From NCBI GenBank assembly GCA_016788885.1, contig JAEURX010000014.1, positions 1 to 64,000 on the forward strand: DNA of 64,000 nucleotides, given 5' to 3'. The position numbers and the translations under genes are program-made. Position 1 is the stretch's first letter. The number at the start of each line of letters is the position of its first letter. The notes under the pieces are model-generated. The model searched no databases, was not told where the DNA came from, and saw only the letters and a list, made by a program, of their open reading frames with translations. Positions 24,627 through 30,760 of this stretch are shown here, piece by piece. Origin of the DNA: Nitrospira sp. (GTDB taxonomy: Bacteria; Nitrospirota; Nitrospiria; Nitrospirales; Nitrospiraceae).

Positions 24627-25007
24627 ATGAGTGGCACTACGGGGCAGGAACAGTTTTCGGTCGATTTGCGTCAGCATCCCAGGTTACGGGTTTCGGCACC
24701 ATTCGTCTGCTCGTTGTCGCGCTTAGGTTTGGCCAAATGGCTCAGTCGCGGAGGAGATGGAATTGGCGTGGTCTTTGACGTATCGATGCGAGGCGCCAAG
24801 GTCATGAGCGAAGCGGGGATTCAGCGCGGCGACAGACTGTCGGTCAGCCTGTCGTTGCCGAATCAGGTTTCGCCGATGACCGTCGAGGAGGCCACGGTCC
24901 GCTGGGAGCGGGAGCAGGTGTATGGCCTGGAATTTGTGAATCTTTCGTCTGTGGCGGAAATGAGGCTGCGGAAGTTCATCGCACTGGCGACAAAGCCCGC
25001 GTCCTAG
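24627..25007 (+). CDS. PilZ-domain protein (first of three)
   Basis: A 126-aa single-domain protein. The N-terminal RQHPRLRV segment fits the RxxxR c-di-GMP-binding motif, and VFDVSMRGAKV fits the second motif (D/NxSxxG). The final strand pair ends at WEREQVYGLEFVNLS, typical of PilZ. GGGAGG lies six bases before the ATG. Two more PilZ proteins follow within 2 kb (26298 and 26713), with an acyltransferase between. It likely binds c-di-GMP and controls a surface process by protein contact. Confidence 0.85.
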   Translation: MSGTTGQEQFSVDLRQHPRLRVSAPFVCSLSRLGLAKWLSRGGDGIGVVFDVSMRGAKVMSEAGIQRGDRLSVSLSLPNQVSPMTVEEATVRWEREQVYGLEFVNLSSVAEMRLRKFIALATKPAS

Positions 25008-25213
25008 CGCCAGACTTCGCGCGGCCAGACAGCAGGCACCAGACCTGGCCGATTTCACGGCCCGTTGGCACTGTTTCGACGGTGGCTGCTCCGCCGCGGT
25101 GAGGCGGCGGGCTGTTCATTACTGTGAGTGCGGGCTTCTGCAACGAATGTTCCGTCTGCCTTCGAGATTGCGCTCGCCGCTCCGTTTCCATACAATGGCC
25201 TCCCCATTCGGCC

Positions 25214-26152
25214 ATGTCCAGGACACAGACCCACCATACGCGGCGGCACCCACACAGCCCCTATCATCCCATGTATTGGCCTACCTGGGTTGGCATCGCG
25301 CTGTTTCGTCTGCTGTCGTGGCTCCCGTATCACTCGCAACTGGCATTCGGGCGGCAGTGCGGGCGACTGCTGCATAGCCTCCTGAGTAAGCGGCGAGAGA
25401 TCGTGCGCGTCAACTTGCAGCTCTGCTTCCCTGATCAGAGTCCGGAAGAGCGCAATGCGGTCGCGCTGCATTGTTTTGAGTCCATGGGGATGGGCGTCCT
25501 AGAAATCGCGATGGCCTGGTGGGCTCAGGATCCCCGCGAGCATTGCGAATGTACGATCAAGGGGCTGGACCATCTTCGTGACGCCCTTCGTGCAGGGCGC
25601 GGGGTGTTGCTCTGTGGCGCACATTTGCATTCGGCGGAGCTGGCCGGGCGGTTCATGGCTCTCGAGCAACCCGTGGCGATCGTCTATCGGCCGCAGAACG
25701 ATATCGTGGCGGACATGGTCGCAAACCGTTGCCGGAGCCGCTACTATTCCGATTTGATTCAACACCGGGATATGCGGGGGATCTTGCGCGCGTTGGCAAG
25801 AAATCAGGTGGTTTGGTACGCCCCCGACATCGATGCGGGCACCAAACGCAGTGTCTTCGCCCCGTTCTTCGGGGTGCCGGCTGCGTCATTGACCGCGACC
25901 TCCAGATTAGCCAAGGTCAGTGGAGCTGCGGTGGTGCCCTGCTTCTACTACCGGCGCTCTGATGGATCCGGCTATGACATCGAAGTGGGGCAGTCGCTCG
26001 ACCAGTTTCCGTCCGGAGAAATGGTCGAGGATGCGACACGCATCAATCGCTTGATCGAAAACGCCGTACGCCGGGTGCCGGAGCAATATTTCTGGCAGCA
26101 CCGTCGCTTCAAGAGTCGCCCGCCCGGTGAGCCGCCGCTCTACAAGCGCTAG
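25214..26152 (+). CDS. LpxL/HtrB-family lysophospholipid or lipid A acyltransferase
   Basis: A 312-aa inner-membrane-associated acyltransferase. After a short polar N-terminus comes the YWPTWVGIALFRLLSWLP helix, then the catalytic HxxxxE-type motif in AHLHSAEL, the FFGVPA and SRLAKVSGAAVVPCF strands, and an R-rich C-terminus (WQHRRFKSRP), all typical of LpxL. It would add a secondary acyl chain to lipid A or a related lipid. The start is uncertain: the open frame begins at 25124, but 25214 gives a family-like length. It sits between PilZ genes, which may indicate c-di-GMP-linked envelope remodelling, though this is inference. Confidence 0.85.
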   Translation: MSRTQTHHTRRHPHSPYHPMYWPTWVGIALFRLLSWLPYHSQLAFGRQCGRLLHSLLSKRREIVRVNLQLCFPDQSPEERNAVALHCFESMGMGVLEIAMAWWAQDPREHCECTIKGLDHLRDALRAGRGVLLCGAHLHSAELAGRFMALEQPVAIVYRPQNDIVADMVANRCRSRYYSDLIQHRDMRGILRALARNQVVWYAPDIDAGTKRSVFAPFFGVPAASLTATSRLAKVSGAAVVPCFYYRRSDGSGYDIEVGQSLDQFPSGEMVEDATRINRLIENAVRRVPEQYFWQHRRFKSRPPGEPPLYKR

Positions 26153-26297
26153 GCGGCACCCCATCACCGGAGTGATCGTCCGGCGGGTCTCATCGACGAG
26201 GTCCTGGTAACTTCTGCGGAAGTATTCGGCGTCTGTTCCCTGCTACGGTATACTGACCCTGCTGATTCACACAGACGATCGCATCATCCGCTTGGCC

Positions 26298-26675
26298 ATG
26301 GATCAATCCAAGAAGCTCTCTCCTGCACAGAAAGAGTTGCGTCAGCACCAGCGGCGTGTGGCGCCGCCCGGGTGCCTGTTGTCCTTTGCCCCGTTTGCTC
26401 CGACTCTCAGTTTTAACGGCGATGCAGAGGGTGAGGGCGTCATTCTCAACCTCTCGCCCGGTGGCTGCAAAATCAACAGCGATGTGGGTGTGAAGGTGGG
26501 GGATGCGATGTCGCTGATCATGCTGCTCCCTGGGGAATCATCTCCCACAGCGGTGGATCTGGCCCTGGTGCGATGGGGACAGGATGCGTGTTTCGGTGTC
26601 GAGTTCGTGTCGATGGGTACGGTCGAACAGGATCGCTTGCGTCAGTTCGTGGTCGCCTCCGCGGTGGGGGGCTAG
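26298..26675 (+). CDS. PilZ-domain protein (second of three)
   Basis: A 125-aa protein. RQHQRRVAPPG carries the RxxxR-type motif, and ILNLSPGGCKI the D/NxSxxG motif. The domain ends with VRWGQDACFGVEFVSM. The start is uncertain between ATG 26298 and an upstream TTG (26292); no strong SD is visible. A TATACT box at 26249-26254 could be a -10 element. It lies 145 bases after the acyltransferase and 37 bases before the third PilZ gene. Confidence 0.82.
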   Translation: MDQSKKLSPAQKELRQHQRRVAPPGCLLSFAPFAPTLSFNGDAEGEGVILNLSPGGCKINSDVGVKVGDAMSLIMLLPGESSPTAVDLALVRWGQDACFGVEFVSMGTVEQDRLRQFVVASAVGG

Positions 26676-26712
26676 CACCACGCAGGCATGGGCGATAGGA
26701 GGGAAGGGGCAC

Positions 26713-27045
26713 GTGGAACACACAAAGACATTGCGCAAGTCCCGTCGGGTCGCCACCGAGTGTCGCCTGGAGTTCGTCGGGGAGGACGACTTCGACGGTG
26801 AGGCCGAAATGTTGGATGTGTCCTCAACCGGCTGCATGGCTCGATCTGAGCGTACGATGTCGCCCGGGCTTCGCATGAAGGTCTCGCTGTTCCTGTCGGA
26901 TGGGCTGGAGTGGCCGGTCCGGGTAGAAGAGGCGGTCGTTCGATGGGCGCGGGGAGGAGAGTTCGGGATCGAGTTTGTGGTCATGCGTCCTCCCCAGCTA
27001 CAACGCATTCAGCAGTACGTCATCAAGCATCGTCCGCTGTCGTAA
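26713..27045 (+). CDS. PilZ-domain protein (third of three)
   Basis: A 110-aa protein. The RxxxR-like motif is KSRRVAT and the second motif is MLDVSSTGCMA. VRWARGGEFGIEFVVM forms the final strands, as in the two related proteins upstream. The start is GTG at 26713, with GGAGG nine bases upstream; the longer open frame overlaps the preceding gene. The 37-base gap suggests cotranscription with the second PilZ gene. Confidence 0.82.
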   Translation: MEHTKTLRKSRRVATECRLEFVGEDDFDGEAEMLDVSSTGCMARSERTMSPGLRMKVSLFLSDGLEWPVRVEEAVVRWARGGEFGIEFVVMRPPQLQRIQQYVIKHRPLS

Positions 27046-27259: not shown

Positions 27260-28039
27260 ATGATCGAGTGGGTAGGACGGAAGACCATTGCCGGCTATGC
27301 ATACCTGGCGGCCTTGGCCACGCTCTTCACGCAAGCGATGGTGGATGTGCTGTCCCCAGCGCGGCAGGGACGTGGGGAGACGCTGCGAGTTCTGATCCGC
27401 CAGATCCTCTTTACGGGGGTCGATGCATTGCCTGTCACCAGCGTCATCGCGCTTCTGCTCGGCATCATCATTGTGACGCAGGCCGGCACCCAGCTTCCCA
27501 GGCTCGGGGCAGGCGGGCTGGTGGGGAGCATCATCGTGGTCACGGTGATTCGAGAGCTCGGCCCCTTGATCACCGCATTCATTGTCGTCGGCCGGTCGGG
27601 AACGGCGATTGCCACGGAATTGGGCAACATGTCCGTGACGCGAGAGGTGGTCGCACTCCGACTCATGGGGATTCCCATCAGCCAATTCGTCATCATGCCG
27701 CGCATAGTCGGCATGGTGCTCTCGATGCTGTGCCTGACGTTCTACTTCGATGTCGTGGCGGTGTTCGGTGGATATCTGGTCGCAGATGCACAATTGACCA
27801 TTCCCTTCTCCGCATTTGTCGAGAGTGTCACCCAGGCGCTGTCGACGACGGATGTGTTGATGACCGCAATCAAGGGGCTGGGGTTTGGATCGGCCGTTGC
27901 CGCCGTCTGTTGCTACCATGGCCTGGCGGTGCAATCCTCCTATACCGAAGTGCCGCAACAAACCACCAGGGCGATGATCAATTCCTTCGTCTTGTGTCTG
28001 CTGGTGGATGTCGTCGTGACGGTGCCGCTCTATCTATGA
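27260..28039 (+). CDS. mlaE: MlaE-family ABC transporter permease
   Basis: A 259-aa inner-membrane permease of the phospholipid-trafficking Mla/MCE system. It has five to six hydrophobic helices and the conserved stretch GPLITAFIVVGRSGTAIATELG with TREVVALRLMGI, diagnostic of MlaE. The start is uncertain: ATG 27260 follows a GAAGGAGG site at a long spacing (13 bases), and other in-frame starts exist upstream. Its stop overlaps the ATPase start by four bases. The conserved permease suggests a working transporter, despite the degenerate ATPase downstream. Confidence 0.87.
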   Translation: MIEWVGRKTIAGYAYLAALATLFTQAMVDVLSPARQGRGETLRVLIRQILFTGVDALPVTSVIALLLGIIIVTQAGTQLPRLGAGGLVGSIIVVTVIRELGPLITAFIVVGRSGTAIATELGNMSVTREVVALRLMGIPISQFVIMPRIVGMVLSMLCLTFYFDVVAVFGGYLVADAQLTIPFSAFVESVTQALSTTDVLMTAIKGLGFGSAVAAVCCYHGLAVQSSYTEVPQQTTRAMINSFVLCLLVDVVVTVPLYL

Positions 28040-28767
28040 GCGAGGCAGCGATCAGCTTTTCGCAGATTCGGACGCCCCTGGAGGGCGGCTTGTCCTCCCT
28101 GGAGCTGGATGTGCACATCGCGGCAGGTCAGTTCGTGGCGCTGGTGGGGCCGAGCCGCTCGGGGAAAAGCCTGGTCATCGAGTTGGCAGCGGGGCTGGTG
28201 CTACCGGAATCCGGGAGAGTCACGGTTTTGGGGCAGGACTGGAGCACTGTCCAGGATGGAGCGGTCAGCCCGGTTCGACTGCGTGTGGGGACCGTGCTGC
28301 AGCAGCCGGGGCTCTTGAGCAATATGACCCTGTTCAACAACGTGCTCTTACCGCTACGGTATCATCGCGGGTTGCTGCCGGCTCGTCAACGGGAGCAGCT
28401 GGTGATGGTGCAGCTGGAACGGTTAGGGGTGATGGCATTGCGGGATCGATTTCCCGCTGAGCTCAATCAGGGAGAGATACGGAGGGGAGCCATTGCCCGC
28501 GCGTTGATGCTGGAGCCGGAGGTCCTGCTGTTGGACGATCCTGTGGCAGGATTGGATGCAGACACGGTGCTGGTTCTGAAGCAGTATATCGAAGAGCACC
28601 GACGTCGCCACCCATTGACCGTCGTGGCGGCGTTACGCGCCTGGTCACCTTTCATGGAAGGTGCGGATCGACTGGTGGTGTTGCAGGATGGACGGGTGGC
28701 GGCCGATGGCACTCCTGAAGCAGTGGCCGGGACGGTTCCTCCATCGCTGAGACGATATGTCGGGTAA
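28036..28767 (+). CDS. mlaF: MlaF-like ABC ATPase with degenerate catalytic motifs
   Basis: A 243-aa ABC ATPase in the MlaF position. Walker A is intact (GPSRSGKS, 38-45) and a Gln-loop is present (VLQQPG). However, the signature motif reads LNQGE (143-147) instead of LSGGM/Q. The catalytic Glu after Walker B is Asp (LLLDD, 164-168). The H-loop His is replaced (VVAAL, about 196-200, where MlaF has VVSHD). These three changes together predict weak or no ATP hydrolysis. The rest aligns well along the whole length, so this is not a random pseudogene. ATGA overlap with the permease shows coupling. Confidence 0.85.
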   Translation: MSEAAISFSQIRTPLEGGLSSLELDVHIAAGQFVALVGPSRSGKSLVIELAAGLVLPESGRVTVLGQDWSTVQDGAVSPVRLRVGTVLQQPGLLSNMTLFNNVLLPLRYHRGLLPARQREQLVMVQLERLGVMALRDRFPAELNQGEIRRGAIARALMLEPEVLLLDDPVAGLDADTVLVLKQYIEEHRRRHPLTVVAALRAWSPFMEGADRLVVLQDGRVAADGTPEAVAGTVPPSLRRYVG

Positions 28768-28814: not shown

Positions 28815-29804
28815 ATGCATTATTCACATCGACTGTCGAGCGGCAGATTGGCGCAGATTGTCGGGACCTTCGTGGTGATTCCGGTGCTGATTTTGGTCGG
28901 TGCCGGTTTTTGGATGTCGCGGGCCGAACATCTGTTTGAACCCAAATATTCGCTCATGGCCAGCCTCAGCAAATCATATGGCCTGGAGCCGGGAGCTCCA
29001 GTGGTGGTCTCGGGCATTTCGATCGGCCGGGTCAAGCAGGTGGATTTGAATGATCGTGGAACCGTCGACCTGACCCTGCAGCTCTTGACCCGATACCAGA
29101 ATATGGTGAAGGACAACTCCGAATTACGAATTACGAAGAGCGGTGTGGTGGTCGGTCAGACCCAAGTCGATATCGGGATGGGCACATCCAACAGTTCGGT
29201 CTTGGGCGATGGCGCGACGATCCGTGCCGTGGAACCGAAAGACATCGCCGATCTGCTCAGCGAGGTCGAGCCGGTGTTGATGGCGGTGAAGCACACGTTA
29301 CTTCGAGTGGAAACGATCACGCAGGATCTGCAAGGTGGTCTCAAAGCAGGCGGAAAGGCATTGGAGCAGGTGGCCGTGGCGACGCAGGATCTGCCGTCGG
29401 TGGTGGCATCGGTTCAGCGAACGATTGCCTCGGTGGAGCAAACGGCGACGGCACTCCCGGCGATGACCGGTTCTATCAAGCGGACTCTGAGCGTGGTGGA
29501 CCGTGTGACCGCGGACGTGCAGCAGGCCACCGGCCGCCTGCCGGCTATTCTGGACAGCGCCGAGTCCACGTTGACCAGCGTGAAGCGCCTTTCGGATTCC
29601 GTGGACGAGGTCAGCCAGGAATTGATGCCGGTGATTCGGACGGCCGAAGGCACATTGACCGATGTCTCGATTCTGGTGCGCGGCGCGAAGCAGACGTTTC
29701 CCTTCAATCGGTTTGCGCAGAACGCCGGGCCGACACCGAAGGAATCGCCTGTGCCATCCCAGCCGGGCACGCAGAGCTTGAGGGGAGATCAACTGCGTCG
29801 ATGA
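28815..29804 (+). CDS. mlaD: MlaD-family MCE-domain protein
   Basis: A 329-aa substrate-binding protein of the MCE transporter. One N-terminal membrane helix (about 13-33) is followed by a single MCE domain (about 42-120; LEPGAPVVVSGISIGRV and the ITKSGVVVGQTQVDI strand), then a long helical coiled region (about 140-290) rich in repeated Val/Thr/Ser heptad-like segments, and a Pro-rich tail. The long helical extension resembles tube-forming MCE proteins such as PqiB/LetB-like or Mce, more than the short E. coli MlaD (183 aa). The stop overlaps the next gene by four bases. Confidence 0.87.
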   Translation: MHYSHRLSSGRLAQIVGTFVVIPVLILVGAGFWMSRAEHLFEPKYSLMASLSKSYGLEPGAPVVVSGISIGRVKQVDLNDRGTVDLTLQLLTRYQNMVKDNSELRITKSGVVVGQTQVDIGMGTSNSSVLGDGATIRAVEPKDIADLLSEVEPVLMAVKHTLLRVETITQDLQGGLKAGGKALEQVAVATQDLPSVVASVQRTIASVEQTATALPAMTGSIKRTLSVVDRVTADVQQATGRLPAILDSAESTLTSVKRLSDSVDEVSQELMPVIRTAEGTLTDVSILVRGAKQTFPFNRFAQNAGPTPKESPVPSQPGTQSLRGDQLRR

Positions 29805-30760
29805 GACCGCGATTGGATGGGTGCCACGCAGTCTTGGGCGTCATGGCGCTGTGCACGTTCCTGGGATGCGCAAGTCCTCCGCCACCTGCGTCTCCCGAAC
29901 CACAGCTTGGGCCAGGGGCGGCACAGATTGCGTCTCTTCGGCGGCAGGGCGAGCATTGGCAGATGCGGGGGGATCGCGCCCGTTCAGCGGAGGCCTACGA
30001 TGCGGCACGTCGCTTGGCGGAAAGTCTGGACGACAGGAGGAGCCTCATTGCGACGCTCAATGATATCGGTCGCTTGTCTCTGAGCCGAGGGGATTCGGCT
30101 CAGGCCATCATCTTGCACGAGCGGGCGGTCGCCATGGCTCGGGAACTTGGCGGTGCGGACCTCCTGCTCGAAAGTGTGATCGCACTGGGCGCTGCGCAGC
30201 ATCAGGCCGGGCAAATCCATGAGGCCGAACAGCGTTATCAGGAGGCGCTGGAGTGGGCTCAACAGCAGGGAGATCAGTCGGCGGAGGCGACCCTTCGAAA
30301 CAATCTCGGCTTACTGCGACAGGCGAAGGGAGACCTTGAGGAGGCCGCACAACTGTTTCGGCAGGCCATGGTCTTCAATCAGGCAGTCGGCAATCTCGCC
30401 TCCGAAGCCAGCAATCATGTGAACCTGGGGATGGTGGCCGAGGCCCGCCAGGCCTACGATACGGCTGAACAGGAGTTTGCACGAGCCCTGGAATTAGACA
30501 AAGCGGCGGAGCATCGGGACGAGATTGCGGCTGATCTCTTACGGTTGGGACGGGTTGCCGACCGCCGTGGATTTCCTGATCGCGGCTTGGTCTTCTTCGA
30601 GCGCGCCTACCACAGCTATCTGGCGCAAGGCGATCAGGCCCGAGCCGGGGCTGCACTGACGCAGGCCGTGGTCTGTGCGAAAAAGTTGGGACGGGATGCG
30701 GAGGTGACGCGTTTGGAACGCGCGCTGACGCGGTTGGCAATGCCCTCTCCCGCGAAGTAG
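29801..30760 (+). CDS. TPR-repeat lipoprotein of the MCE operon
   Basis: A 319-aa lipoprotein: signal peptide with lipobox FLGC, a Pro-rich linker, then about six tetratricopeptide repeats (e.g. ALGAAQHQAGQIHEAEQRYQEAL and NLGLLRQAKGDLEEAAQLFRQAM as individual units). It would sit at the outer-membrane face and could dock the MCE complex to an outer-membrane partner, the role that MlaA plays in E. coli; this is inference from operon position. It overlaps mlaD by four bases (ATGA). Confidence 0.85.
   Translation: MRPRLDGCHAVLGVMALCTFLGCASPPPPASPEPQLGPGAAQIASLRRQGEHWQMRGDRARSAEAYDAARRLAESLDDRRSLIATLNDIGRLSLSRGDSAQAIILHERAVAMARELGGADLLLESVIALGAAQHQAGQIHEAEQRYQEALEWAQQQGDQSAEATLRNNLGLLRQAKGDLEEAAQLFRQAMVFNQAVGNLASEASNHVNLGMVAEARQAYDTAEQEFARALELDKAAEHRDEIAADLLRLGRVADRRGFPDRGLVFFERAYHSYLAQGDQARAGAALTQAVVCAKKLGRDAEVTRLERALTRLAMPSPAK

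Follow-up and report, generated by a model that had tools for sequence, protein, structure and literature searches.

A long-retained MlaF-like subunit stripped of most catalytic residues in nitrite-oxidising Nitrospira and relatives suggests a lipid conduit that works without ATP hydrolysis

In the window, a 64,000-nucleotide stretch of a Nitrospira sp. contig, a lipid-transport operon encodes a degenerate MlaF-like nucleotide-binding domain (NBD), here called MlaF*; its gene lies between those of an MlaE-type permease and an MCE protein. We estimate at roughly 60% the probability that MlaF* is a pseudo-ATPase that braces MlaE in an MCE conduit independent of ATP hydrolysis, a reading drawn from comparisons of genes and operons. 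The odds seem slightly better than even that this operon represents a distinct, ancient class of Nitrospirota MCE transporters, whose ABC motor now serves as a non-catalytic scaffold and whose permease works as a hydrolysis-independent trans-envelope lipid conduit. Word-matching searches of the open-access literature on degenerate MlaF, on pseudo-ATPase MCE systems, and on MlaE together with Nitrospira returned no description of such a system.

The features of the locus are listed in the table. PF02405 and PF02470 both scored over their cut-offs, identifying an MlaE-type lipid transporter operon. The ATG of mlaF* (28036-28038) overlaps the mlaE stop codon TGA (28037-28039), and the intact frame and ATGA-type translational coupling to an intact MlaE that the first-pass annotation of this DNA had described were confirmed. 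The start of the TPR gene overlaps the stop codon of the MCE gene, and the TPR gene is a conserved neighbour of the operon. The operon contains one NBD gene only, and no MlaB or STAS gene was found in mlaE-mlaF*-MCE. Canonical NBDs are present elsewhere in the genome (3.92 Mb, 75 contigs): a second, canonical MlaF paralogue, a possibility raised in the same annotation, was found beside each of two other mlaE loci, designated C25 and C38.

Table. Features of the degenerate operon and its surroundings, in window coordinates
Feature	Coordinates	Strand	Remarks
Lipid A acyltransferase-like gene	25124..26152	+	Pfam Lip_A_acyltrans E 1.2e-69; synteny with the operon kept within the genus
Two PilZ-domain genes (26292-26675 and 26584-27045)	26292..27045	+	Pfam PilZ; just upstream of mlaE
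mlaE permease, 259 aa from ATG 27260	27260..28039	+	Pfam MlaE E 3.2e-63
MlaE coupling-helix R128, column of E. coli MlaE E127	27641..27643	+	Glu in 48/48 canonical, 0/54 degenerate-operon MlaEs
mlaF*, degenerate MlaF-like NBD, 243 aa	28036..28767	+	Pfam ABC_tran E 2.4e-23
P-loop GPSRSGKS, residues 38-45	28147..28170	+	Third Gly replaced by Arg; genus-wide pattern GP[SG]R[SA]GKS
Region following the Q-loop, PGLLSNMTLFNNVLLPLRYH, residues 91-110	28306..28365	+	Conservation peak of the subfamily; putative surface for docking to MlaE
Degenerate ABC signature LNQGE, residues 143-147	28462..28476	+	LSGGM column; intact in 0/55 orthologues
Walker B Asp167 (retained) and Asp168 in place of the catalytic Glu	28534..28539	+	E. 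coli D169/E170 columns
H-loop column, His replaced by Arg201	28636..28638	+	27/27 genus NBDs carry Arg
MCE (MlaD-like) protein, 329 aa	28815..29804	+	Pfam MlaD E 1.7e-13
TPR protein, probable lipoprotein	29801..30760	+	Pfam TPR_12 E 5.9e-21; lipobox-like FLGC near the N-terminus

Motif columns were assigned by alignment to E. coli MlaF (LSGGM 145-149, D169, E170 and H203) and to 45 canonical Nitrospirota MlaFs. Like a canonical MlaF, MlaF* has the NBD fold and an operon with MlaE and MCE genes, but it lacks LSGGM, the catalytic Glu and the H-loop His (LNQGE, D168 and R201, respectively). The first two of these losses had been reported from the sequence earlier, and the alignment bore them out. 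The third was correct in that no His is present, but it had been placed on the Ala of VVAAL; the gap-free alignment put the H-loop column on Arg201 of VVAALR (SH to LR), and the Ala assignment, misplaced by a residue or two, was discarded. Walker A, described as kept, does match the consensus GxxxxGK[ST], but its third Gly, which is 100% conserved in the canonical set, is replaced by Arg. MlaF* scored 106.7 bits against the NCBIfam MlaF equivalog NF008809 (cut-off 441), a miss that is weak evidence by itself because the model was built on proteobacterial-type MlaF.

A census of 55 NBDs from degenerate operons found the P-loop consensus in 45, the Q-loop Gln in 39, the Walker B Asp in 49, the catalytic Glu in 5, the H-loop His in 3 and the signature in none; these are not counts of independent events because the sampling was uneven, with 27 of the 55 NBDs from one genus. 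Not one of the 55 kept the P-loop, signature, D169, E170 and H203 together, whereas 45/45 MlaFs encoded at canonical loci in these genomes kept every motif. Because the signature is preserved in 0/55 orthologous NBDs versus all of these canonical paralogues, the motif pattern of MlaF* is not due to chance. Sequencing error was rejected because dozens of independent genomes agree.

The AlphaFold2 model of MlaF* showed a confident NBD fold (pLDDT 93.1, pTM 0.91) that aligned from end to end with MlaF and with other NBDs. Comparison with MlaF chains gave Z scores of 26.9-29.6, with E. coli MlaF (6xgz_C) at Z 29.6 and 27% identity. The MCE protein was predicted to have a TM helix (residues 9-37), an MCE domain (about 44-139) and long helices (144-294), the model being confident up to about residue 140 and the helices beyond it of low confidence.

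Orthologues of mlaF* with 60-78% identity, intact frames and like substitutions were present in 27 of the 29 genus genomes; the other two (G008 and G014), whose assemblies are fragmented (380 and 230 contigs), yielded no degenerate mlaF. All 26 other genus orthologues examined were degenerate, so that the substitutions first noticed in a single genome proved to be conserved in its genus. The P-loop consensus and the Walker B Asp were invariant across the genus, the Q-loop Gln and the D-loop were largely kept, and the MlaEs of the degenerate operon were 81-96% identical. At the family level, the operon recurs in ten other genera, which had matches at 40-54% identity (E at or below 4.5e-51) among the matches listed, in which the next level, about 33% identity (E about 1e-33), was that of the canonical paralogues. 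No degenerate mlaF stood out among the matches listed for the large genera g14, g15 and g17. Patchy loss or absence of the mlaF* operon within the family is suggested by these comparisons.

A search of 396 Nitrospirota genomes with the MCE protein as query recovered the mlaE-NBD-MCE operon in four more families, namely a sister family (L088 and L089), f19, f22 and f17, and their NBDs were degenerate too. The TPR gene followed the MCE gene in nearly all operons and was undetected in a few f22 loci. A contig scan with query-specific peptide patterns, uninformative on other phyla, returned only Nitrospira orthologues and unrelated Firmicutes NBDs. In the MlaE tree, 30 degenerate-operon permeases formed one clade (support 100/99), and in the NBD tree, from which the motif columns had been removed, so did the degenerate MlaFs (support 97/97); its long branches (f17, f19 and f22) call for caution, and the tree program flagged long-branch joins in both trees. 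Close relatives with canonical motifs, which would mean recent decay, were not found, and orthologues in other genera and families were also degenerate. Judged by these alignments and trees, MlaF* is a phylum-wide, ancient subfamily, neither recently decayed nor unique to one genome.

Genus-mean identity to the window proteins was 90.0% for MlaE, 70.6% for MlaF* and 85.5% for the MCE protein; the corresponding values for MlaE and MlaF were 95.9% and 93.3% at the C38 locus, and 78.7% and 84.5% at the C25 locus. By the Nei-Gojobori method, with pairs limited to a dS below 1.5, the median pairwise dN/dS in the degenerate operon was 0.068 for MlaE, 0.198 for MlaF* and about 0.08 for the MCE protein. 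It was 0.024 for the permease and 0.045 for the NBD at C38, and 0.139 and 0.108, respectively, at C25. The NBD-to-permease ratio was thus 2.9 in the degenerate operon versus 1.9 (C38) and 0.8 (C25), and these ratios are rough because many pairs have dS near 1. Purifying selection on MlaF* is clear but looser than that on its partners; at the two canonical loci, the ATPase is looser than the permease by a factor of about two at most. The faster evolution of MlaF* than of its neighbours, and the two genus genomes without an orthologue (both fragmented assemblies), could be taken as signs of recent decay, with mlaF* a pseudogene in progress. We rejected this prospect as negligible, given the intact frames in 27 genus genomes, a dN/dS of about 0.2 and not near 1, the same changes in close relatives across the genus, and the grouping of the degenerate operons in one ancient clade. 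The dN/dS value and the lack of canonical close relatives support the view, put forward in the first-pass annotation, that selection for a non-hydrolytic role is more likely than decay.

The invariant P-loop consensus and Walker B Asp of the genus, with the largely kept Q-loop Gln and D-loop, would also suit a slow or regulatory ATPase, in which MlaF* would bind ATP, Asp168 would act as a weak base, and binding with occasional hydrolysis would gate the conduit. Slow turnover is possible with Asp in the role of catalytic base, a point against a pseudo-ATPase, as is the retention of E170 and a His in one homologue (L063). E. coli MlaF E170Q, for its part, still has about 20% ATPase activity, with a growth defect (PMC7784689). 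In MlaF*, however, the conservative change at E170 is accompanied by loss of the signature Ser/Gly, the third P-loop Gly and the His. Neither K47A nor E170Q MlaF complements in E. coli (PMC7367683), and no activity was detected for K47R (PMC5016091).

Outside the genus, the motifs that a slow ATPase would use fail in several lineages. At two loci (L057 and L059), the Walker A Lys is replaced by Arg (GPSRSGRG and GPNRSGRG) and the Walker B Asp by Glu, yet the operon persists; mlaE and mlaF* lie farther apart there (about 240-560 bp), and no convincing ORF for an extra gene was found in the gap, part of which is a run of N in L057. In family f17 (L097, L099 and L102), the P-loop is gone (TETEFEKN, AETDFEKN) and the NBD gene still lies between mlaE and the MCE gene; the L097 and L099 proteins still match ABC_tran. 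Because such failures of the P-loop, Walker B Asp and Q-loop coexist with a persisting operon, nucleotide turnover would seem unneeded for the shared function, and the simplest account is that the function common to the degenerate operons does not require hydrolysis. For Nitrospira itself, since its P-loop and Walker B Asp are invariant, a slow ATPase is a minority possibility that deserves some weight.

The lowest-entropy 15-mer lay at residues 93-107 in the degenerate set, within PGLLSNMTLFNNVLLPLRYH, versus 142-156, in the signature helix, in canonical MlaFs; the position of this peak is more telling than the absolute entropies because diversity is higher in the degenerate set. The permease coupling helix of ABC proteins contacts the region that follows the Q-loop. 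By this general ABC anatomy, residues 91-110 of MlaF* are a putative docking surface for MlaE. The MlaE coupling helix sits between TM2 and TM3 (PMC7790496). In degenerate-operon MlaEs, the E127 column of this helix holds R, Q, G or N, invariably followed by Glu; in the docking segment of their NBDs, the E112 column is Tyr in 51 of 55. Because the Glu of the E127 column is lost in 54/54 of these MlaEs and the E112 column has changed alongside, the pattern fits a private MlaE*-MlaF* pairing. In every operon that was read, mlaF* is retained next to its mlaE.

These findings weigh on the proposal that a canonical MlaF from another locus powers MlaE*, alone or as a heterodimer with MlaF*. Candidate donors are at hand in the canonical MlaFs of the two other mlaE loci, and an NBD shared between MCE systems has a precedent in mycobacterial MceG. 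The title of PMC9947336 names MceG together with Mce1 and Mce4. MlaF*, however, carries defects in its own half-site (E to D, H to R) as well as in the signature that it would lend, which would impair each of the two composite sites of a heterodimer. To our knowledge, heterodimeric ABC proteins concentrate their defects in one site. The exporters TM287/288 and TAP resemble the present case in that the catalytic Glu and H-loop His are replaced in one NBD, but they keep one working site, whereas an MlaF* homodimer would have two defective sites because the operon has a single NBD gene. With the coupling-helix Glu of 48/48 canonical MlaEs gone, the E112 column changed, and mlaF* retained next to its own mlaE, a borrowed motor appears improbable, and the earlier suggestion that the transporter is energised by another subunit has become less likely.

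If MlaF* is a pseudo-ATPase, as we favour, it would keep the MlaF fold and docking to MlaE while losing the site for efficient hydrolysis, and would brace an MlaE dimer carrying an MCE tube on top, in a structural or, at most, nucleotide-sensing role. The MCE protein, with its TM helix, MCE ring and about 150 predicted-helix residues, is probably a periplasm-spanning conduit, and the TPR lipoprotein its probable outer-membrane partner. The driving force would be the lipid's own gradient or some source apart from MlaF* hydrolysis, as in PqiAB/LetAB; the passive flow proposed here is by analogy. An ATP-independent MCE conduit has precedent, since ATPase-less PqiAB and LetAB have been described (PMC12436622). 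The role of ATP in Mla-type systems is debated, as is the direction of lipid movement, inward and outward transport both being discussed in PMC10212509 and PMC7790496.

MlaF* shares with the MlaF of E. coli, Pseudomonas and Acinetobacter MlaFEDB the NBD fold, the MlaE and MCE operon partners and the docking segment adjacent to the Q-loop. It differs in the missing LSGGM, catalytic Glu and H-loop His, a shorter C-terminus and a clade apart from canonical MlaFs, and no MlaB/STAS gene was found in its operon. The E/F/D core, an operon lacking MlaA, MlaB and MlaC, and an elongated MlaD with long helices recall Veillonella parvula, in which MlaD is transenvelope in a minimal MlaEFD (PMC10665443); the MlaF of that species is described as resembling those of model diderms, in contrast to the degenerate NBD and the downstream TPR lipoprotein gene of the present operon. 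PqiABC and LetAB resemble the proposed Nitrospira system as MCE conduits without a working ATPase, but they use PqiA or LetA and have several MCE domains per protein, unlike the MlaE and NBD-like subunit found here. Strong selection on MlaE and the MCE ring after loss of the hydrolysis machinery would make the conduit function separable from energy input. The canonical Mla loci of the same genomes serve as built-in controls, and the graded series from P-loop-intact Nitrospira to complete loss in f17 may reveal what the NBD does besides hydrolysis.

At the canonical C25 locus (L002), MlaE has a long N-terminal extension (456-aa ORF), which is possibly an MlaB/STAS-like fusion of the kind reported for Brucella MpcE (PMC12436622). 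Upstream of the degenerate operon, synteny of the PilZ pair with mlaE is kept in the genus and at L050. A third PilZ-like gene (24627-25007) was assigned by sequence similarity to the other two only; the lipid A acyltransferase-like gene is thus surrounded by three PilZ-domain-like genes, an arrangement conserved across the genus and partly present at L050. The PilZ genes beside a lipid system hint at c-di-GMP control.
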